A DNA stretch of 64,000 nucleotides from Heterohyrax brucei (lineage: Eukaryota > Chordata > Mammalia > Hyracoidea > Procaviidae): positions 141,332,829 to 141,396,828 of the forward strand of contig CM053143.1 of assembly GCA_028571685.1 (NCBI GenBank). Reading direction: 5' to 3'. A program made the translations under genes and the position numbers. Below are positions 2,564 through 30,108 of the stretch, piece by piece. Within the stretch, counting starts at the first letter, position 1, and each line of letters begins with the position of its first letter. Under the pieces are notes generated by a model, which was given only the letters and a program-made list of their open reading frames with translations, searched no databases and was not told where the DNA came from.

Positions 2564-3337
2564 GAATGTAAAAATACAAAAATACATCGTATTCTAAGGC
2601 TTTCACAACTTTAAGCGGCCCCACACCACTGTCCTCAAACAGCAGTTATTCTACATGCAGCCTTCTGCTGTGTTACTGTTCTGTATTCTGTGTTGTTTGT
2701 CAAAAGAGGAAGCCTCTTACACTCAGATACCGCTTATCTACTGCGCTTCCTCTGGACCCTTCTGATTTATCAAAAGAATTGCATAAATAATTATATGTGA
2801 CCTCAGGAACAAGGAAGGGGCTTTGATCTTCTGGCCATTGCCTGTTTCCTGAAGGATTTTGCTCTCTGCTTCCTTCTGTTCGGGATAATTCTCAAACCAC
2901 ATAATCGAGTCCTTAATCAAACTCTCTTTGTAATCTTAGTAGAGTGTAGCCTTAGGACTTTAGGTCACGTCTTAGATTGATGCTACCCCTGTTAAGGTTC
3001 AGATTTACAGTCTGCTCTGTTTTTGTGGAAATCCAGCATCTTAACGGTGAGGGTGGTCTTCATCCATCACTTCAGTTAAACTTTATACTTGCAGAATTTC
3101 TTTTCAAGACTGTAGATTATTAAACATTCTGGGGCTGGTTGTAGCAGAAGGTGAAGGGGGGAATCAATCACTGATAGAAGAAAGGAAACAGCAGATATGT
3201 CTGCTCTGGGGGAGTACCACAGTTTGAATCAGACTGGCTAACTCTTAACTTCATTAGACTAATAATAAACATTCAAATTGTAATCAACATTAACAGTTAT
3301 GTTAGTTATCTGTTCAATTCCATGATAGCTGAACTAG
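2564..3337. other. unassigned sequence
   Basis: Single-copy-looking DNA of about 770 bp with short ORFs only and no recognised domain or repeat. Confidence 0.4.
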
Positions 3338-3347
3338 TAATAAATGA

Positions 3348-3511
3348 CCCAAAGCCATCACCACCATCAAGTTGACTCCAATTCATAGTGACCCTACAGA
3401 CAGAGTGGAACTGCCCCATAGAGTTTCTAAGGAGTGTCTTACGGATTAGAACTGATGACCTCTTGGTTAGCAGTCATAGCACTTAACCACTACACCACCA
3501 GGGTTTCCATT
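3348..3511 (-). mobile_element. type A SINE with 10-bp target duplication
   Basis: Reversed SINE from 'AAGTTGACTCCAATTCATAG' to CACCACCAGGGTTTCC. It is flanked by TAATAAATGA at 3338-3347 and 3512-3521, a clean target-site duplication. Confidence 0.9.
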
Positions 3512-3521
3512 TAATAAATGA

Positions 3522-4017
3522 TCAGGATTGTTTATTAAATGATCTCTAAGTTTTGAAATTTCTTCAGCTATGGGCGATGACAGATTCCTGCTCAAAAGCA
3601 AGATGAAACCCCAGCCAGTGTTGTGAAGGATTATGGAGCTGTGAACCAGGAGGTTAAGACGAGGAGCTTAACTTTTATGTTCCATAAAATGGGAAGCGGC
3701 TTCTGTACCTCTGACCTCAAATCTGACAATGATTCTCAGTGCCCAGAGAGAGTTCATGCCATCGTGATTTCATTTGTTCTTCATCACAGGAGCTCTCTGT
3801 GCCGGGGAGGTTAAGTATTTTGAACCTCACTGGACCAAGGGGAAATGGAAAGCTATAAAGGTTAAGTGACTGGCTTCAGATAAACAAAACTGAGAGCTGT
3901 GTTAACTCACTGAGAGATGTATGGCTTTTGAATATAACCAAACATTCCATATTTTTCCAGGGCAGTTAGGATTTGAAACTGTTTCTTTATCCCAGATATG
4001 TGCACTTATCTGATTAA
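3522..4017. other. unassigned sequence
   Basis: No gene recognised. 'GGGGAAATGGAAAGCTATAA' plus GGTTAAGTGACTGGCTTC near 3839-3877 hints at an old MIR but is too short to call. Confidence 0.35.
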
Positions 4018-9702: not shown

Positions 9703-10357
9703 TGTTATGAGTCGAATTGTATCTGCCCAAAATATGTGTTGGAATCCTAAGCCCTATACCTGTGGCAGGAGTGATGGCAGCACAGCGGTTAAGCTGATAA
9801 TGGAAGGGTGATGTCCAGTTTAGCAGTAGAGGTGGTTTAAATCCACCAACCACTCTATAAGAGAAAGCTATGGCAGTCTGCTTCTGTAAAGGTTCACAAC
9901 CCTGGAAGCCCAATGGGACAATTGTACTCTGTCCTATAGGGTTGCTATGAGTTGGAATTGACTTAACAGCAATGGGTTGGATTTTTTTTTTTTAATTTCC
10001 TGTGGATGTGGTCTTGTTTCGGAATAGGCTTTTCTTTGTCGTGGTTAATGGGGCCATACAAGTGTTAGATATATCCTAAACCTAACTACTTCTGAGTTGT
10101 AAAAATCAAATTAGGCCAGTACATATAGAGGCAAGAGAGACACTATCTGATGACCAAGGCAGGTGAATCTGCTAGTCCAAGTGTTCCAAGGATTGATGGC
10201 TACTAGAAGCTGAAATAGACAAAGAAAGACTTTACCAGAGAGCCATACCTTTAATTCAGACTTTCAGCCTCCTGAGCTGTGAGAAAATAAATTTTGTTTT
10301 TCGAAGCCACTGACTTGTGTTATTTCTGTTACAGCAGCACTAGCTAACTAAGATGCA
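9703..10357 (+). mobile_element. MaLR-like LTR, second subfamily, split by a SINE
   Basis: Opens 'TGTTATGAGTCGAATTGTAT' and closes ACAGCAGCACTAGCTAACTA plus AGATGCA. The polyadenylation region GTGAGAAAATAAATTTTG is conserved. The body differs from the 13449 copy, so it is another subfamily. Confidence 0.75.
9765..9985 (+). mobile_element. long type A SINE nested in LTR
   Basis: Drifted head AGCACAGCGGTTAAGC, the extra internal block 'CTATGGCAGTCTGCTTCTGT' seen in long copies, and tail 'GGGTTGCTATGAGTTGGAAT'. Confidence 0.8.
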
Positions 10358-13448: not shown

Positions 13449-13952
13449 TGTCATGGATTGAATTGAATCCCCTTGCCAAAAAAGACAAAAAAAAAAAAAT
13501 TGTAGGTATCAATTTGCCTGGAACATGATTCTTGGTATTATGCAATGTTCCTGTATGTTATGAATCCTGCCTATATGATGTTAATGAGGAAGGATGGCGG
13601 CAGTTACGTTGGTGAGGCAGGACTTAATCTGTAAGACTGTTGTGCATTGAGCCAGTCTCCTGGAATACAAAGGAAAAGGAAGCAACTAGAGAGTTAGAGA
13701 CCTCATATCACCAGGAAAGTAACACCAGAAGCAGTGTACATTCTTCGGACTTGGGGTCTCTGGGTCTGAGAAGCTCCCAGTCTAGAGGAAGATTGATGAT
13801 AAGGATCTTCCTCCAGAGTCAACAGAGAAAGCCTTACCCTGGAGCTAATATTTGGACTAGTAGCCTACTTTTCTGTGAGAAAATAAATTTCTCTTTGTTA
13901 AAGCTATCCACCTATGGTATGTCTGTTACAGCAGCACTAGATACCTAAGACA
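13449..13952 (+). mobile_element. MaLR-like solo LTR, full length
   Basis: 'TGTCATGGATTGAATTGAAT' to GCACTAGATACCTAAGACA, with polyadenylation signal GTGAGAAAATAAATTTC. Flanking CTAGG and CTGGG fit a 5-bp target duplication with one change. Confidence 0.85.
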
Positions 13953-14179: not shown

Positions 14180-14630
14180 GTGAACAGTGGGGACAGTTAA
14201 AAAAGTCACAAATGTGGGCACTGCAGATGAATCTCAAGCCTCTCACTATGTTTCATACTTGATGGGTACAAGCCTTGGATCTCTGTAAGCCTGAAGGTAG
14301 CATTACCTACCTCCCAGTGACAAGTGCTACTGGGGTGCCTGATCACTGTCACTTGAGAAGGATAGTTACAGATACAATAGTTTTTTCCTGGCAGTCTGTG
14401 ATATAAATATAATAGTTCTTTCCTAACAGTTGTCATGTAGACATAACAATTCTCCCAGCAGTTGAGATGTGGCCAAACCTGCCGAAGGAACATCTAGAAA
14501 TGACCTAACTCTTATTTCCATACTATTGCCATATCATTGTCATACTCTTTGGGAGAGGACTCATCATGCAGCTGCTGACATATTAGCTGGAATCCAGAAC
14601 CAAGAACTAAGTCACTATCTCTCTTCCCAT
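14180..14630 (+). mobile_element. possible older LTR, left part (host of the ERV)
   Basis: Short internal near-repeats of the type ACAATAGTTTTTTCCTGGCA / ATAATAGTTCTTTCCTAACA resemble LTR U3 enhancer repeats. Read together with 23376-23540, across the ERV, it forms a plausible plus-strand LTR. This is inference. Confidence 0.3.
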
Positions 14631-15180
14631 TGTAATCATAATCACAGATCCATGTCTCCTGTCTTCAAAGCCAATACTGAGACAGGAGGTGAGGTGATTA
14701 AATGAGGATATTTATTGAGTGCTGACACACAAGAGGTAATGGGGAATCAGTTCCTCCAAAGCTTGCCTGCGTGCATAGGCTATGCTTGGAGGTTAAATAG
14801 GTTGATTAAGGAGGGGTACACTGGTTAACATTCTTCCCAGGTCCACACAAACAATTCCTTTGTTGTTTCAACAATATTCTTCGCAAGGGTCTGCATGGCT
14901 CCCAAAAGTCGGGAAGCTGGATAATCATCAAAGTACAAACCATCTGGTGATTCAGTCTGATAGTCGTAGAGAATAGCTGAAAGGCAATAAACAGAACAAT
15001 TAGGGAACAATTGTAAGAGGAAACAACAGCTGTGTGACTTATAACTGCCAAGCCAAGTACAAGGTAAATTCTTGTGGATGTGGGAAAAACAAGTTCTTAG
15101 GACTTGGTACTTTTGACATGACTGTTTTAACTGCTATTTGTAGCAAGTTGGAGTTGGGGTGGCCAAAGACCTCCCTTTCA
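14631..15180 (-). repeat. 3' LTR of the ERV
   Basis: Matches 22844-23375 end to end. Shared landmarks on the plus strand are TGTAA at the left, 'GAGGATATTTATTGAGTGCT', 'CATTCTTCCCAGGTCCACAC', AGTTGGGGTGGCCAAAG and a CTTTCA right end. It has a short extra CCAAGCCAAGTA stretch near 15050 that the other LTR lacks. Confidence 0.92.
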
Positions 15181-15319: not shown

Positions 15320-15735
15320 CATATAACATGTGTCTGCATGTGGGAAGAGGATAGAGCATCCATCATGAATACCCCTTCCACCTGGAGGGTGAAACTAGCT
15401 CTTCTCAAGATCATCTTAACAAGGCATGGTACATAAACACAGATTTGAACAATTACCATTATGATAGTGAGAAATGGAGTTAGCCGAGATTCTAGACAGG
15501 GAAACAAATTAGATGGCCAGCTACCCCAAGGCTGCCAGTTTGGATCTCGATGAGTCCAATTAGCCCCAATATGGATTTCATCTAGTCTTATCTTCTCCTG
15601 AAGTGTTAACCCAAGTACAGCAGGTTTTATTGATGACTTCTGGGCACCCCCCATTTTTGTAAGTAGGAAATCTAGTGAAGTGGTTATCAAGGACCAGCAC
15701 TACCAATGAATTGAGCTCTCAAAGCCTTTTCTGTT
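15320..15735 (-). pseudogene. env: env transmembrane subunit remnant
   Basis: The coding strand holds a C-x7-C-C cysteine cluster (codons near 15646 and 15622-15617) followed by T-W-V-N-x-S-G. This is the conserved disulfide region of gammaretroviral TM, which is normally C-x6-C-C. Downstream, in another frame, come a tryptophan-rich membrane-proximal stretch (W-x2-W-G-S-W) and one hydrophobic span (about 15418-15480) that would anchor Env. The frame changes between the cluster and the anchor. The fusion peptide and most of the heptad region are not visible. The V-L-D-N sequence just before the cluster matches the end of the immunosuppressive-type helix region. Non-functional. Confidence 0.75.
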
Positions 15736-16506
15736 CCCACTGCCATCAGATCACTGGTGTCAGAACAGTCTCTTCCATTTGGTACATCCCTAATCTCAGT
15801 ATGACAGTTTGGAGGAGCCACCAGCTGCATCCACTTTCTTCAATAAAAGGATTATATCCTCCTGGATTGTACCCCTCTATGTCCTGTTTAACAATTTTAA
15901 TGGTGACTGTTGAGGCAATTTGATGAACCTGGGTAGGGAACACTAGGAATCCCAAAGTACACTGTGCCAAAAAGACTCTTGCGTTTAGGCATTGTATGGC
16001 CCAAGTCCAAGGTGTGGGTCAAGGCAAGCAATCTCTGTTAGAAGGGTAAGGCCTTCCCCTCCACAGAAGGGTGTATCCTGGAGTGGCATGCAGTGAGAGG
16101 TTAGCAATAAGTGAATCAAAATTGTTCATTAGATAGGCACTAAATTTAGTTTGATCACATAAAGGAAAAAGTTAGAAATCCTGGTAACTGGGGTCCTTGC
16201 CCATCCTCAGGGGTCAAATGAGGAGTCTCCAGCCCTCAGTAGTAGTCTTATTATGTCATCTAGACAGAGTAAAACAAGGTACTGTAACAGGATATTGAAT
16301 TAACTGGGCTCAGACCGGAACTTTTGGCTTTGTAAGGGTGTTGATTCAGTAAGGGGTATGATTATAATTGAGTACCGGAGCAGCCTTGGGGTGAACTGGA
16401 GTTCCTGAGTAGACAAGATGGTGACAAATCCAATAATTTTTAAGTCTACATCCCTAACAACTGCTTGGGACATTGATAATACACCATTAGAGGACCAGTC
16501 CCGTCC
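15736..16506 (-). pseudogene. env surface-subunit region, degenerate
   Basis: Lies between the Ig-like domain and TM. Stretches such as N-K-T (glycosylation sites), A-N-L-S-L and G-x-T-L-L-W with scattered cysteines look like a retroviral surface protein, but stops occur every 10-40 codons and I see no diagnostic motif. The assignment rests mainly on position. About 770 bp is short for a complete surface subunit, so part is probably deleted. Confidence 0.45.
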
Positions 16507-16829
16507 ATCAGGTTGGGATTTTACTGTAACCTGAACCCCTTTCCCCTCAGAACATGAACATCTTGACAGATTACCTTATGAAATTTAACACAGAAATAAG
16601 AGCCTTCATCAAGGAGAGTGATACCAGAGATGGTAATAGAAAAATCCTTATTATTTCTCTGGGTAGTATCAGTGATCGGGGAAATTTGAGAGATTTATTT
16701 TTTGCTTCCCAAACTACAATACTTGCCCCTCCTGAATTTTGTTTCACTTATTTTAGTGGTGCAGGTAAGTGTCAGAGTCCTGTCGGTCATCACAATGAGG
16801 GTTCCTTCTGTCTGATGTAAAATGAGTTC
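16507..16829 (-). pseudogene. SIRP-like immunoglobulin V-set domain inside the ERV
   Basis: One reading frame of the coding strand runs from an E-L start (16829) and aligns with the N-terminal V domain of signal-regulatory proteins. The first cysteine (16763-16761) is 22 residues after that glutamate, as in mature SIRPs. A T-x-R-N-N-x-D-F-S-I stretch, I-S-x-I-T, D-x-G-S-Y and Y-F-C-V-K-F follow, with the second cysteine at 16592-16590. After a +1 frame change near 16525 the strand ends with a G-x-G-x-x-V-x-V-K J-like strand. The cysteines are 57 residues apart, about 9 fewer than usual, and the core tryptophan is not seen. There is an in-frame stop at 16697-16695. In SIRPs this domain binds CD47. 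Here it sits where env should begin, and no signal peptide or membrane segment could be tied to it. Family identity is strong; capture from a host gene is inferred. Confidence 0.85.
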
Positions 16830-16836
16830 AGACCTT

Positions 16837-16866
16837 CCCCAAAAAAATCATTTTTTTTTTTTTGAA
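16837..16866. repeat. A/T homopolymer palindrome at the Ig-domain edge
   Basis: Plus strand CCCC, seven A, TC, A, then thirteen T. It forms a small hairpin-capable AAAAAAAT-C-ATTTTTTT immediately upstream (coding sense) of the Ig-like domain. Confidence 0.7.
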
Positions 16867-16959: not shown

Positions 16960-18330
16960 GCTATCCTTAAACAAGTGTGATGTACCCAGCTACTAGAGTG
17001 AGCTTCACAGAGGAGTGCATGGTCAACAGGACTTCATACAGAGCTCGCCACCCTGGAGCCAACTGGTCTTCAGGATGTTGCTGTCTTCACACCTTCGGTA
17101 AGACTTGGCAGCCAGGCTTGAATACGTGGAGAGAGGCCTTGGCTAGGAAAGAGAGACAAGAGGAAACATATTGATTAGTAATAGTAAGGGCTTTTCCCAA
17201 AGAATGGACCCATTCCTGCTCCTCCCTTTCAGTAGTCACTTAGGTGGAAAAAGCGAACTGTTCCAAGAATGGCCTCCCATGTATTAACTCACAAGGGCTT
17301 AATTTAAGCTTGCTTCAAGGGGCCACCCAAACCTAGAGCAAGGCAATTCAATACCTGGTTACTTCCCAGGACTGTTCAGTTTGAGAGGTGAAAGCCTCCA
17401 CCCATCTGGAGGGTGTGTCCACAAAGACCAGTAGTGTCATGGATTGCATTGTGTCACCCTAAAAACATATGTATTGATTTGACTTGGCTATGAGTCCCAA
17501 TATGGTACCATTTCTCACATGTATTGTGAATCCTGCCTTTGTGATGTTGAGGAGGGAGAATGGACAGCATTTGTATTAGTGATGCAGGACTCAAGTTACC
17601 AGCTCAGGTATATAAGGGAGAGAAGTGAGCAGAATAAGTTGGGAACTTCAGACTACCAAGAAGGCAGCACCAAGAGCAGATTACATTCTTTGGGCCTGAG
17701 GTTCCTGTGCTGAGATGCTTTCATTGAATTTGGACTCAGCCCACAGGACTGGAATTAATTCTCTTACTGAATGAACTTGTAAATTGTAAATGGATTTGTG
17801 GCATACTGGACTGTGACAATAACGTTTCTCTTCATGAATCCATCCATTTGTGGTATTTTCTGCTGGAGCAGTACCAGGTAACCAAAACAAGTAGGTACCA
17901 AAAGTTTCCTGGGGCTTGAGGTGTTACAGTCAAGTCCAGCTGCCGATCTTCTCCCATATCTGTTCCACAGAACTGGAACCCTGGTCCTGAGGGGTGTGGG
18001 ACTCTTTGGATTATTCTAGGCACAGAGGAGACCTTCCTCCATCACTTTTTGAATAGTCTTTAAAAGGTGAGGCCCAGCCATTACTTGTTGCAGCCATTCT
18101 ATACTGGCATCCCTACCATACTGAGTGTGGTCATACAGAACAGACACTACATCTCATATCTGAGCTTCAGGTACGAGGACTTTGAGATCTGGACCAACAA
18201 GACAGTCAGTGTTTTGATTGGGGTAAAATCTCCATTTCTTGGCTCTTTTTAAATCCTATTAAGTATAAACAGGTGCAGGAAGATGTGGAAAGGCAAGAGT
18301 GCGAATGACAGCAAAACTGGAATTGGACTC
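16960..18330 (-). pseudogene. pol: integrase remnant, split by an LTR
   Basis: Coding strand from 18330 down shows the end of RNase H/start of integrase. At 17434-17380 there is V-F-V-D-T-P-S-x-W-V-E-A-F, the catalytic-core strand with the first active-site aspartate. Then comes L-I-H-G-R-P-F, typical of the region after the core, and near 17100-16985 a C-terminal W-R-A-L-Y-E-V-L-L-T-like segment matching the GPY/F module of gammaretroviral integrases. Much of the core with the second D and the E is missing, so there is an internal deletion. Interrupted at 17435-17889 by a MaLR-like LTR. Confidence 0.82.
17435..17889 (+). mobile_element. MaLR-like solo LTR inserted in integrase
   Basis: 'TGTCATGGATTGCATTGTGT' to AGCAGTACCAGGTAACCAAA plus ACA. 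Perfect 5-bp target duplication AGTAG at 17430-17434 and 17890-17894. Opposite orientation to the ERV and younger than it. Confidence 0.9.
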
Positions 18331-18339
18331 AATTGGTTG

Positions 18340-18830
18340 GGGTGTGGCCTTCCTAGCCTCAGGATATGCCTTCCTATTTCACATGGCCTCTGGAGTCTTG
18401 CCACTTTGGAGGCCAGGGCAATAGAGAACTGCTACTTGGGCAGGGTCTCCTACGGCCTGCAGGAGTTCCAAAATTTCAGGCACATGTTTTATCTCTATTT
18501 GCTGCAGTGAGGAGGCCTTGTTCTCGCCACATGACACCACAAGCATGTAAAACCAGCTGAGCATACTGAGTATCAGTGTATATATTTACTCTCTTCCCGG
18601 CAGGCAGGCAAAGGGCTCCTCCCAAGGATATCAACTCTGGCTTTGGGGCCGAAGTACCTGGGGGCCAGCCTCCAAAACTTCAGTCAGAGTCACTACTGCA
18701 TATCCAGCGCTTCTTTTCCCACCCATCATACTACTTCCATCTGTGTATATTTCAACTTCTGGATCATCAAGGGGAATGTCAGAAAGATCAGGGTGGCTAG
18801 AATAGAACTCTCTGATGATTCCTAACAGTC
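18340..18830 (-). pseudogene. pol: RNase H domain remnant of pol
   Basis: The coding strand shows I-Y-T-D-G-S-S near 18750-18730 (first catalytic aspartate), an A-E-L-like helix region, then I-Y-T-D-T-Q-Y-A (another catalytic aspartate) near 18580, and V-A-V-L-Y-C-P-G-L-Q-S-G near 18440. The last motif normally reads C-P-G-H-Q, so the conserved histidine is now leucine. Several frame changes. In the intact virus this domain degrades the RNA strand during reverse transcription. Confidence 0.85.
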
Positions 18831-19619
18831 ATGTTGAGGTGGCGCTCCGCAACAGGCAGTAACATGGCTGAATTCAAAGTCATCACCACCCACAGAATTA
18901 TGTTTGGATTGTGTGATAGGTTGGCTTGGTGTTTCCCCATCCATCCTGCTGTCATCCAGAATCCCCATTTCTACTCGAGGAGGGAGAGGACTACACGCGG
19001 GGTATTTACCACCACTTGCTATCCCAGAGTAACTTCTGCTTCTTGGAGCAAATCTCAGGTGGCAGTGACTGCCTGCAGGCATGGGGGCCATCCACAAACC
19101 ACAACATCCAATTGCTTTGAAAAGTAGGCAACAGTCACTTTTCAGGCCCTAAAGTTTGGGCCAGGATCCCCATGGCCACTTTCTGTTTTTTGTGTAAAAA
19201 CAGTGAGAAAGGCTTTTTGAGATTGGGAAGCCCTAGAGTAGAGGCTGTCATTGCCAAGCCAAGTACCGTCGAGTCGGATCTGACTCTGTCATTAGTTTAT
19301 GTTTAATCTTTTCAAAGGCCTGTTGGCACTCAGGTGTCCGTAGCAGAGGTTCCCTTTCTTCTCCTTTTAATGCCTCATACAGATGTTTCGTGATTAGTCC
19401 ATACCTTGGTATTCAAAATGTGACAGAACCCTGCCATACCTAGAAATCCCCTTAGTTGTCACTTACTTGTTGGTGACTTCACTTGGGCAATTACTTTCCT
19501 CCTATAGGGCAAAGGATTTCTTTGTCTCTGAGAAATCTGGAACCCCAGGTACTTTACATGAGGTTATATAACTTGAGCTTTCATTTTGGAGATCTTATAA
19601 TCACATTCAGCTGGACAAT
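18831..19619 (-). pseudogene. pol: pol thumb/connection region
   Basis: The coding strand contains Y-L-G-F-Q-I-S and L-R-G-F-L-G-M-A-G-F-C near 19560-19440, characteristic of the region after the RT active site in class I retroviruses, followed by a degenerate connection. A 35-bp reversed SINE-tail fragment interrupts it at 19252-19286. Multiple stops. Confidence 0.8.
19252..19286 (-). repeat. SINE/RTE tail-only unit, copy 2 (reversed, truncated)
   Basis: 'TGCCAAGCCAAGTACCGTCG' plus AGTCGGATCTGACTC is the reverse complement of the last about 35 bp of the unit at 1893-1941. It lies inside the ERV pol gene. Confidence 0.75.
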
Positions 19620-20210
19620 TTAGGACATATATAGTGTTTTGATCTGAGTCCTCTTTAGTTTCACTGGCCACCAGTATATCATCTACATATTGTAAAATGA
19701 TTATCCCTTTCAGTTCTGTGCCAGAATTTCCACAAATATTGTAGGGGAATTCTTACATCCTTGTACAAAAACCTGCCAAGTCAGATGTCTCTTTGTTCCA
19801 GTCTCAACATCTATCCATTCAAAAGCAAACCAAAGCTGTGAGTGTGAATGTAAAGGTATGCAAAAAAATTTATCTTTTAAGTCCAGCACCAAAAATCACG
19901 CGCAGTTCCCAGGATTCGTGACCAGGAGGGTATAGGGTTTGGATACAACTGGATTAATCTCCTCCACAGCTTGATTAATTTTTCTTAAGTCTTGTACAAA
20001 CTGATATTTTTGTGTGCCTGGCTTAAGTACAGGCAAAATGGGAATAGTGTAAGGAGACAGGCAATATCTTAAAACTCCTGTTTTCAAATATTGTTGAGCC
20101 AGAGGTGCAAGGCCTTCCAGGGCTTCTCTCTGAATTGTGTACTGTTTTTGACCTACTGTGGGGGCCCCGGGTTTTAGAATAGTTTTTACTGGTGCCATCG
20201 ACTTTGCTCA
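19620..20210 (-). pseudogene. pol: reverse transcriptase remnant
   Basis: A 100-codon open stretch (20198-19896) starts with A-P-V-K and L-K-P-G-A, includes L-P-V-L-K-P-G-T and V-Q-D-L-R-K-I-N, and ends near the palm. The frame then shifts. 19892-19710 carries V-L-D-L-K-D-K-F-F (motif A aspartate) and Q-G-C-K-N-S-P (motif B). In the following bases (about 19700-19660) Q-Y-V-D-D (motif C) is intact. The order and wording are those of gammaretroviral RT. Inactive because of frame breaks. Confidence 0.95.
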
Positions 20211-20640
20211 CCCTGGCTGGCCTGCTGTCCACATGGCTGCATTTGCCTGTTGTTCAGTGTACTCGGGAATGTTTTCACCTACACTAGGTGGCATTGTTTC
20301 CTCATGTAGCAGAGCAGCCTGCAATGCACAGCTGCATGAAGATGGTTCTGCAACCGTATATTGGGGGGATTGAAAACTTTGAGAGGAGGTCTCGTCTGAC
20401 AAGGGCCACTGGGCACTCAGGCATATAAAGGAATTCATGATAAAGTAGTTTACTTCCTAACTCACAGCTTACTGGCTGTAAGAAAAGTTGGGTTGCAAGT
20501 TTTCCGGTGATTCCAACAATAGGTGTTTTTTCTGTGGCTCAAAGGAGACTCAACCATATTCAATACTGAGAACATTACATCTATGTCAAGTTTACCCAGG
20601 GTTCTTGGTGGGAGATAGGGAAGTTGTTCTCTGACCCTGG
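20211..20640 (-). pseudogene. pro: retroviral protease and pro-pol linker
   Basis: The coding strand shows an F-S-V-L-N segment near 20570, the end of the active-site region (normally D-T-G-A-x-x-S-V-L; the D-T-G-A part is not recognisable). Then, one frame over, come P-I-V-G-I-T-G-K (flap), H-E-F-L-Y-M-P-E-C-P-V and R-R-D-L-L-S-K, the conserved C-terminal block. 20380-20211 is the acidic linker leading to RT. An aspartic protease that would process Gag-Pol, inactive here. Confidence 0.82.
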
Positions 20641-20849: not shown

Positions 20850-21620
20850 GTTTGTCAGGTGTGGAAAGAGTGGCTGCCAACAGTGCAGCCACTGTTTTTG
20901 GTTCTGTTTCTCCTGTTCAGTAGCCTGGTCCCGGGAATTAAAAACCAGTTGTCCTATAGGCATCCCAAGAACCTCTTTAAGTTTCTGTAATTTTTTTTCT
21001 GGATATCAGGGGCACTCTGAGAGAAGAAGGTCATATTCAGTAACCTAACATTATTGGGATCTCTGGGGTTAATAACAGTGTGTTGGTGAAATGCCTCAGT
21101 GACTCAAGAAAGGTTGAAGGATCCTCCTTTTCTTCCTTTCCTCCCAAATTTTATTTAAGCTTTTTGGCTTTGGAGCCCCATTTCTTAATCCAAAAATAAT
21201 ACAGTACTGATAGTGTTGAAGCTTAGCCTTTCCTTCCTTGGTGTTATACCCCATGCAGAGTTGGTTACAGGGCCTGCTGGCAGGCCAGCAGGGCAATCCC
21301 CATTAGTGGGATCTAAATTATGTAACAGGTCAGCCTCTATCTGTGCCTTTTCCAATACCATGTGGTGCTCCTCAGATGTCAGCAACATATTGCTGTGAGT
21401 CAGTACATCTTCCCATGTGAGGTAATGAGTACAGAAAATGGAAAGAAACTGTTCTGCCTTTCTATTAGGGTCACTTCTGTAAGAAAAGGTGTGGTTCAGA
21501 GGATTGAGTGCAGATGCCCATTAGCAACGACCCCAGTTCGTACTTCTCTTAGAGGGTATTGCCCTGCCTGGAGCCTAGAGCTTCCCTCACCTAAAACAGT
21601 ACCCTGTCGGATATGAGAGG
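20850..21620 (-). pseudogene. gag: gag capsid remnant
   Basis: On the coding strand, Y-P-L-R-E-V near 21560 marks the capsid N-terminus. Then come W-E-D-V-L-T, E-E-H-H-M-V-L-E-K-A, F-G-L-R-N-G-A-x-K-P and, near 21030-20990, Q-S-A-P-D-I-Q-K-K, the start of the major-homology/C-terminal region. There are at least three frame changes, one at an eight-base A run. Confidence 0.87.
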
Positions 21621-22838: not shown

Positions 22839-22843
22839 GAATT

Positions 22844-23375
22844 TGTAACCACAATCACAGATCCACACTGCCTGTCTGCAAAGCCAATACTGAGACATGA
22901 GGTGAGGTGATTAAACGAGGATATTTATTGAGTGCTGACACACAAGAGACAGGGGACAATCAGCTCCTCCAAAGCTTATGCATAGGCTAAGCCTGGAGCT
23001 ATGTAGGTTGATTAAGTAGGGGGACATTGGTTAATATTCTTCCCAGGTCCACACAAACTATTCCTTTGATGTTTCAACAATATTCTTTGTGAGGGTCTGC
23101 ATGGCTCCAAAAAGTCAAGAAGCTGTATAATCATCAAAGTCCAAACCACCTGGTGATTTAGTCTGATAGTCTTAGAGAATAGCTGAAAGGTCATAAACAG
23201 AACAATTAAGGAGCACTCTTATGAGGAAAGAATAGCTGGATGACTTATAACTAGCACAGGTAGATTCTTATGGATGTGAGAAACACAAGTTCTCAGGACT
23301 TAATACATTTAACATGCTGTTTTAACTGCTGTTTGTAGCAAGATGGAGTTGGGGTGGCCAAAGGCCTCCCCTTCA
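22844..23375 (-). repeat. 5' LTR of the ERV
   Basis: Partner of 14631-15180. Plus-strand left edge TGTAACCACAATCACAG, right edge GGCCTCCCCTTCA. Coding-strand ends are TGAAGG...TTACA, a TG...CA LTR. Confidence 0.92.
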
Positions 23376-27791: not shown

Positions 27792-28167
27792 TTTATGCTA
27801 ATATATGTTTTTTTCTTTCTATTCCCTTAAAAGTCTCCAGATAGGAAACTGACTTTCCTAAATGTCTATCTGGCCCTACCTTTAGGTCTCTGGTTGAGTA
27901 TTTTTTGTGTGTCTTTTTTGTAGCTTTCAGTTTCCAGAAGCCTGAAGCAGACTTTCAATGAAATCAGTTTTCTAAGTTTTAGTTCTGTTTTCTGAGAGAC
28001 AGTGAGCAGAGAAGGAAGGGAAAAACTCTGTGTGAATATTCTGGGCATGTTGGAAGCAAGCAAAGATTATTCCATACATGTCTTTCTTGTGAAATATTCC
28101 TCCTGATTATCATTTGATCTAATGATTTGCTTTTTGACTAATCCTTTGATTGTTTCTGAAACACATT
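27792..28167. repeat. 376-bp local duplication, copy 1
   Basis: From TTTATGCTAATATATG to TTTCTGAAACACATT. A direct copy at 29734-30108 is about 95% identical by eye. Both contain an open stretch of about 60 codons on the minus strand that resembles no family I know. Confidence 0.92.
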
Positions 28168-29733: not shown

Positions 29734-30108
29734 TTTATGCTAATATATGTTTTTTCCTTCTATTCCCTTAAAAGTCTCCAGATAGGAGACTGATTTTCCC
29801 AAATGTCTATCTGGCCCTACCTTTAGGTCTCTGGTTGAGTATTTTTTGTGTGTCTTTTTTGTAGCTTTCAGTTTCCAGAAGCCTGAAGTAGACTTTCAAT
29901 GAAATAAGTTTTCTAAGTTTTAGTTCTGTTTTCTGAGAGACAGTGAGCAGAGAAGGAAGGAAAAAACTCTGTGTGAATATTCTGGGCATGTTGGAAGCAA
30001 GTAAAGACTATTCCATACATGTCTTTCTCATGAAATATTCCTCCTGATCATCATTTGATCTAATGATTTCCTTTCAGATCAATCCTTTGATTGTTTCTCA
30101 AACACATT
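29734..30108. repeat. 376-bp local duplication, copy 2
   Basis: Partner of 27792-28167, same orientation, about 1.9 kb away. Its left edge is the exact end of a SINE tail. Confidence 0.92.

Follow-up and report, generated by a model that had tools for sequence, protein, structure and literature searches.

A SIRP-type V domain at the N-terminus of gamma-type envelope proteins in endogenous retroviruses of Heterohyrax brucei

How does a domain that looks like part of a host immune receptor come to lie within a retroviral element? The question is raised by a stretch of 64,000 nucleotides of the Heterohyrax brucei genome (assembly GCA_028571685.1, contig CM053143.1, positions 141,332,829 to 141,396,828; hereafter the window), for which a preliminary description, made from the letters alone, had placed an immunoglobulin (Ig) V domain of the SIRP family at positions 16507-16829, inside an endogenous retrovirus (ERV) and as captured cargo between pol and env. 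The V domain of the window was compared with known proteins, its copies were searched for in the whole genome, and the surroundings of 72 of the copies were screened for the integrase and for the surface (SU) and transmembrane (TM) subunits of the retroviral envelope protein (Env). We consider it probable that the V domain of a host SIRP was captured by a retrovirus, whose gamma-type Env took it on as its N-terminal domain, likely the receptor-binding head.

The V domain of the window and its copies in the genome

On the minus strand, the interval 16507-16829 holds a frame with an E-L start, a cysteine 22 residues on, and the motifs RNNKDFSI, ISGIT, DEGSY and YFCVKFHK, so that every motif named in the preliminary description could be read there. 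Host SIRPs align with it as well: with 120 listed of 922 host SIRP proteins as tblastn queries against the 64-kb window (E limit 0.01), the alignments run from 16838 to approximately 16527, the best row reaching 16470 (best E-value 3.6e-14). The SIRP-type V domain was delimited to 16524..16838 (minus strand) from the tblastn, PDB and Pfam matches; its frame is interrupted by a stop at 16695-16697, a second stop follows after 16524, and the frame changes near the G strand. For the half of the domain after the first stop, the first 19 PDB rows were SIRP beta-1, alpha and gamma (E-values 2.6e-10 to 5.5e-8), the best non-SIRP family was pIgR (1.7e-4), and Pfam reported V-set (6e-6). For the V domain of a better preserved copy, locus L009, the first 19 PDB rows were again SIRPs (3.6e-23 to 3.1e-19), followed by an antibody (1.1e-9). 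These rows are distinct sequences, several being variants of one protein, and SIRPs were compared with other V-set families in PDB only. The earlier assignment to SIRP rather than to antibodies or T-cell receptors (TCRs) is thus borne out, and a V domain of the common antibody or TCR kind was rejected, as SIRPs rank first for both the window half and the L009 domain. The half before the stop (16698-16829) alone gave nothing significant in Pfam or in its own similarity search, protein searches with the window's V and TM pieces returned 3 and 4 candidates, respectively, all of them with E > 10, and scans of IMG/VR (V piece and two Env queries) and of a phage collection gave no useful match.

A host SIRP gene in the window was rejected, given that no other SIRP piece was found in the 64 kb (139/139 tblastn matches at E ≤ 0.01 fell in the V stretch) and that retroviral sequence flanks the V domain on both sides. 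C1-type domains, a membrane part and V-adjacent splice sites, as expected of a SIRP gene, were not found around the V domain either.

The genome of the same animal (3.488 Gb, 62 contigs) was searched with the window V piece (E ≤ 0.001, 150 of 195 candidates scored), and at least 116 matching places were found, 14 in a host-like cluster and at least 102 elsewhere, the window included. Chance resemblance was rejected on these E-values and on the at least 101 other matching places outside the cluster. From the 102 non-cluster places, 72 (the window, L009-L019 and L021-L080) were examined with pieces of L009 and L011 as context queries. As these loci were chosen through V, the presence of V is given by construction, while the presence and order of the Env parts are independent of that choice. 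SU and/or TM lay beside V in 68 of the 72 loci (55 with V, SU and TM, 11 with V and SU, 2 with V and TM), and the remaining four had V with the upstream integrase only. All best matches shared the strand of V (integrase 54/54, SU 66/66, TM 57/57), and the order integrase-V-SU-TM, judged from same-strand matches, was present in 71/72 loci, the exception being L015, which has a weak integrase match elsewhere. The search for other proviruses with the order pol-V-env, which the preliminary description had proposed for afrotherian genomes, was therefore positive in this one; the finding that it had named as a refutation, copies lacking the domain, was looked for in one direction, as the 68 copies with SU and/or TM were themselves found through V.

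The 14 cluster matches (L020, L081-L088 and L090-L094) are V exons at 56.8-57.6 Mb of contig C17. A CAG acceptor-like end was present in 13/14 (not in L092) and a GGTGAG donor-like sequence in 14/14, and 12 members group next to the SIRPs of other mammals in the V tree described below, from which L081 was left out. We take this cluster for the host SIRP locus, judged from its V exons. L020, the sole host locus given the same context test, had no integrase, SU or TM match. L089, on the same contig at 60.9 Mb, is an ERV copy. One V exon of the cluster, L088, is strongly diverged (tree branch 1.65).

Architecture of the envelope protein

The relation of V to the rest of Env can be read in copies with natural stop-free frames. 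L009 has an uninterrupted frame of 654 codons that comprises the end of the integrase, a methionine at residue 68, the V domain, CWVC, CX6CC and a membrane anchor; in its Env the cysteines of the CXXC stand at positions 171/174 and those of the CX6CC at 457/464/465, and approximately 164 residues separate the CXXC from a CTLGFL motif. The frame of L011 (479 codons) holds V, CWIC, CX6CC and the anchor, with a leader that is not clear-cut. Pfam found V-set (1.5e-12) and TLV_coat (1.2e-10, starting at profile position 439) in L009, V-set (8.5e-9) and TLV_coat (3.9e-18, starting at position 255 of 560) in L011, and TLV_coat (2.9e-19) in L015; L014 had no TLV_coat and only a V-set match below the cut-off (2.8e-5). 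The TM part of L009 matches syncytin-2 and syncytin-1 in PDB. Among the 14 stop-free ERV frames containing V, nine have the CXXC, and 11 have W[DEN]W right after the last V strand, where L036 has a variant and L015 and L037 end. L009 and L011 hence carry the hallmarks of a gamma-type Env (CXXC in SU, CX6CC in TM, and TLV_coat, the last also in L015), but an N-terminal receptor-binding domain (RBD) of the kind found in murine leukaemia virus (MLV) or the syncytins is not seen in them: the N-terminal part of the TLV_coat profile is unmatched, and V-set fills the N-terminus.

Because V, SU and TM share one uninterrupted natural frame in L009 and L011, we conclude that V is Env's own N-terminal domain and not separate cargo. 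The claim of a SIRP sequence in an endogenous retrovirus thus stands, and many ERV loci carry it, while the placement of V as an insert between pol and env has to be given up. By extension, the interval in the window is most likely the decayed N-terminal domain of a retroviral Env. Its last V strand and V-to-SU junction lie in a stop-free frame (16303..16575, minus strand; GVQVTVKSQPDGRDWSSN) that is similar to the corresponding junction in related copies, e.g., L014, L046 and L062. A degraded SU follows at 15764..16453 (tblastn with L009 SU, 157 bits, 38% identity), and a degraded TM with the CX6CC region and the anchor at 15379..15718 (42 bits with L009 TM, 58 bits with L011 TM), both on the minus strand. 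The Env pieces of the window alone gave no TLV_coat in Pfam, and a PDB search with three of them returned none, four weak unrelated and no matches, respectively, the TM piece having no match.

A separate observation concerns L015, where a frame of 332 codons (2707-3702, minus strand) starts with a gag nucleocapsid-like part (zinc-knuckle-like CCFSCGKSGYMIRDC, by eye) joined directly to V. It looks as if pol had been deleted, and Pfam gives only Ig families there.

Whether V was maintained as a protein was assessed by dN/dS between natural stop-free frames, without a significance test, between pairs that share sequences, and with post-integration decay pushing the ratios towards 1. Over the second half of V the ratios were 0.24-0.63 in seven ERV pairs and 0.31-0.46 in three host pairs; after V (SU-TM) they were 0.16-0.70 in seven pairs with dS < 1.5, one further pair having dS 2.4 and a ratio of 0.24, and seven pairs being saturated. 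We read them as a sign that V was kept as a protein while these viruses replicated.

In L009 (1813-3774 of G000:C27:19744500-19750500) the env frame is open over 587 codons beside an integrase remnant that aligns with six stops over approximately 150 codons, part of which may be a frame shift. Because the integrase is stop-ridden while env is open, the locus suggests that env was kept after pol had decayed, which makes it a candidate for a host-kept Env. A polypurine-like tract and sequence resembling a long terminal repeat (LTR) follow env. The 5' LTR was not found in two stretches taken upstream.

Origin, spread and role of the V domain

The integrase matches place the V-bearing loci in two retroviral backgrounds: among the 72 loci, 47 are gammaretrovirus-like and seven betaretrovirus-like, i.e., matching L010, itself one of the seven. 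The latter type is clear in six (L010-L013, L016 and L066), and weak and out of order in L015. Pfam found rve and Integrase_Zn in L010, RVT_thumb and RNase_H in L011, and the gamma-type pol signal MLVIN_C weakly in the window (7e-4) and at 1.9e-9 in L019. The tree of V domains against host SIRPs that the preliminary description had called for comprised 64 rows, some of them partial, with 37 of 109 V domains from other mammals and excluding the window piece. In this unrooted tree the 14 ERV V domains all fall on one side of a branch with 100/99 support; within them, the betaretrovirus-backed type (six domains, counting L015) makes up a group (100/98) nested among the other ERV V domains (93/85). 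The ERV V domains join between the SIRPs of the own genome and those of other mammals and are nested in neither, a placement that long branches may mislead. An SU tree (22 rows, 10/19 inner branches unresolved) recovered the betaretrovirus-backed (100/100), L009-type (99/98) and window-type (95/96) groups, with L046 and L068 unplaced.

One group of ERV V domains in combination with two pol backgrounds fits a single capture, after which the Env was passed to a betaretrovirus-like virus by env recombination. As the ERV V domains are nested in neither set of SIRPs, the capture may predate the split of the Afrotheria or have occurred on their stem lineage. A gammaretrovirus-like virus would have taken up the V-encoding exon of a host SIRP gene, a direction of transfer that we infer. 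V would then have come to form the outer domain of Env, N-terminal to the portion of SU with the CXXC, at the place that the RBD occupies in MLV-like gamma-type Envs. The chimeric Env would have worked as one protein and multiplied in this genome before the betaretrovirus-like virus took it over. Its position suggests that V bound a cell-surface receptor, and receptor binding is most likely the role of the domain. By analogy with gamma-type Envs as treated in a review (PMC9967133), binding at V may have led to isomerisation between CXXC and CX6CC and then to fusion. A V domain in this slot is structurally plausible, given that the RBDs of MLV and EnvP(b)1 have IgV topology, as stated in PMC12051499.

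CD47 is one candidate for the ligand. At the CD47-contact positions of SIRPs, most residues of the BC and FG loops are conserved in the ERV V domains, and those of C'C'' and DE are mostly changed; this partial conservation weighs against the proposed reading, as do several further points. L009 showed no R-X-[RK]-R-like site for cleavage between SU and TM, and its leader is hydrophobic by eye but below the 19-residue threshold used. In the window copy both the V domain and the CXXC are damaged, and the V tree was built with no outgroup and with a bootstrap that had yet to converge. The replacement of an older RBD is deduced from a profile match and position, in Env loci that were all found through V. 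Moreover, the CXXC precedes the RBD in some gamma-type Envs according to the review (PMC9967133), so that binding could lie after the CXXC. The full sequence of events, in which the SIRP V replaced the RBD of an Env, entry proceeded via a SIRP ligand, e.g., CD47, the Env hopped between retroviral classes and L009 became a host-kept gene, is unlikely to hold in every part.

The position of the CXXC ahead of the RBD in some gamma-type Envs makes an accessory immune role the main rival. V might have been a cap acting on SIRP ligands and dampening phagocytes or other immune cells, with receptor binding after the CXXC as in the syncytin-2 type. SIRPs are an immune checkpoint family, and the approximately 164 residues between CXXC and CTLGFL in L009 would offer room for such an arrangement, as would the position of the RBD behind the CXXC in some gamma-type Envs (PMC9967133). 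On the other side, the TLV_coat match of L011 starts only at 255 of 560 and V is what comes before it, and V is present in the Env copies obtained, though those were found through it. We regard this role as doubtful, yet worth keeping in view. The opposite direction of transfer, with the host SIRP derived from the virus, or a convergent resemblance, draws on the unrooted V tree and on the IgV topology of the MLV and EnvP(b)1 RBDs (PMC12051499); it is very improbable, since the likeness is at the sequence level, with SIRPs far above other V domains, since splice-site sequences border the host V exons, and since convergence would not give such identity.

Taken alone, the window copy could be read as a provirus into which, once it was integrated, an exon or a retrocopy of a host SIRP was inserted, the more so as the V domain matches one SIRP exon. 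The other copies leave this reading practically no room, and it was rejected: 71 other ERV loci hold V (by which they were chosen), 67 with SU and/or TM and four with the upstream integrase; the order is identical in all but one of the 72, the window included; and the 64 kb yielded no further SIRP exon. In addition, the median identity of the ERV V domains to SIRPs of the own genome and of other mammals is 28-40% (43-45% for the window piece), while the minimum identities among host SIRPs are 44-49% with the diverged L088 left out, a comparison that speaks against a late insertion.

The reading as a captured Env domain has parallels in known systems. The N-terminal V domains of SIRPA, SIRPB1 and SIRPG are the best sequence match of the ERV domains and share the motifs PVGP.KW, DFSI and CVKF.K, whereas the ERV copies differ from SIRP genes in their 28-40% median identity, in having no other SIRP domain found and no V-adjacent intron, and in the fusion to SU-TM. 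Gamma-type Envs such as syncytin-2, syncytin-1 and MLV Env have the CXXC in SU, the CX6CC in TM and TLV_coat in common with them, the syncytins being the best PDB matches, but here a SIRP-type V forms the N-terminus. Envs of the gamma type occur very widely. Acute transforming viruses capture host genes and likewise take host coding sequence into a retrovirus, whereas here one exon was apparently built into the Env of a widely multiplied lineage. The RBDs of MLV and EnvP(b)1 occupy the same Env slot with IgV topology, but the accessible part of the source describes no SIRP-level sequence similarity for them (PMC12051499). Env swapping between retroviruses is exemplified by BaEV and RD-114 (PMC10536682); here likewise one Env type stands behind gamma- and betaretrovirus-like pol, with the difference that the exchanged Env carries a captured host-type domain. 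The review cited above expects novel folds chiefly in SU's N-terminal domain (PMC9967133). A SIRP domain in a retroviral Env was not described among the matches listed in our literature search, which covered few subscription journals.

Dozens of ERV relics with a SIRP-related outer end of Env suggest that a checkpoint receptor of the host supplied the material from which a virus remade its docking head. If the ligand was CD47 or another SIRP partner, the virus would once have used an innate-immune checkpoint as its door, and if the replacement of the RBD is true, it would directly illustrate how a gamma-type Env can acquire its IgV-like binding domain from a host gene. Because the V domain is still recognisable as SIRP-type beside Env in 68/72 loci and occurs in two backgrounds, its origin, its binding partner and the order of events are testable.

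The provirus around the window V domain

The element in the window appears from its parts to be a minus-oriented, LTR-flanked gammaretrovirus-like provirus with V between the integrase and the remaining envelope. The 5' LTR (22843..23375, minus strand), which begins with TG on that strand, and the 3' LTR (14630..15180, minus strand) are direct repeats of each other with 84.8% identity over 551 columns, and the four bases flanking the pair are ACGG and ATGG (by eye). The Kimura distance between them is 0.16 (80/547 sites; slightly high, as a few non-LTR columns are included), corresponding to an age of 27-55 million years if rates of 1.5-3e-9 are assumed. The primer-binding site, read by eye, is TGGTGGCCCGTACAGTGA, which we take to be tRNA-Ile-like (HERV-I-like). 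The order from gag to integrase is kept, with weak to moderate Pfam matches, all on the minus strand: a gag capsid (p30) fragment at 21188..21520 (Gag_p30, 7.9e-5, below the cut-off), a protease fragment at 20305..20538 (RVP, E-value 0.1 only), reverse transcriptase in two stop-free pieces with YVDD at 19567..19895 (RVT_1, 1.1e-7 and 6.2e-6, the second below the cut-off), an RNase H fragment at 18634..18828 (RNase_H, 0.035, weak) and a fragment of the integrase C-terminal domain at 16970..17086 (the MLVIN_C match mentioned above, below the cut-off).

The window also contains repeats that are presumably AfroSINE-like. Short diverged repeat matches at 10254-10353, 13850-13950, 13558-13597 and 17524-17563, the last within the provirus, are perhaps old LTR elements. 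A direct repeat of approximately 376 bases lies at 27792-28167 and 29734-30108, its two copies being 95% identical and 1.94 kb apart.
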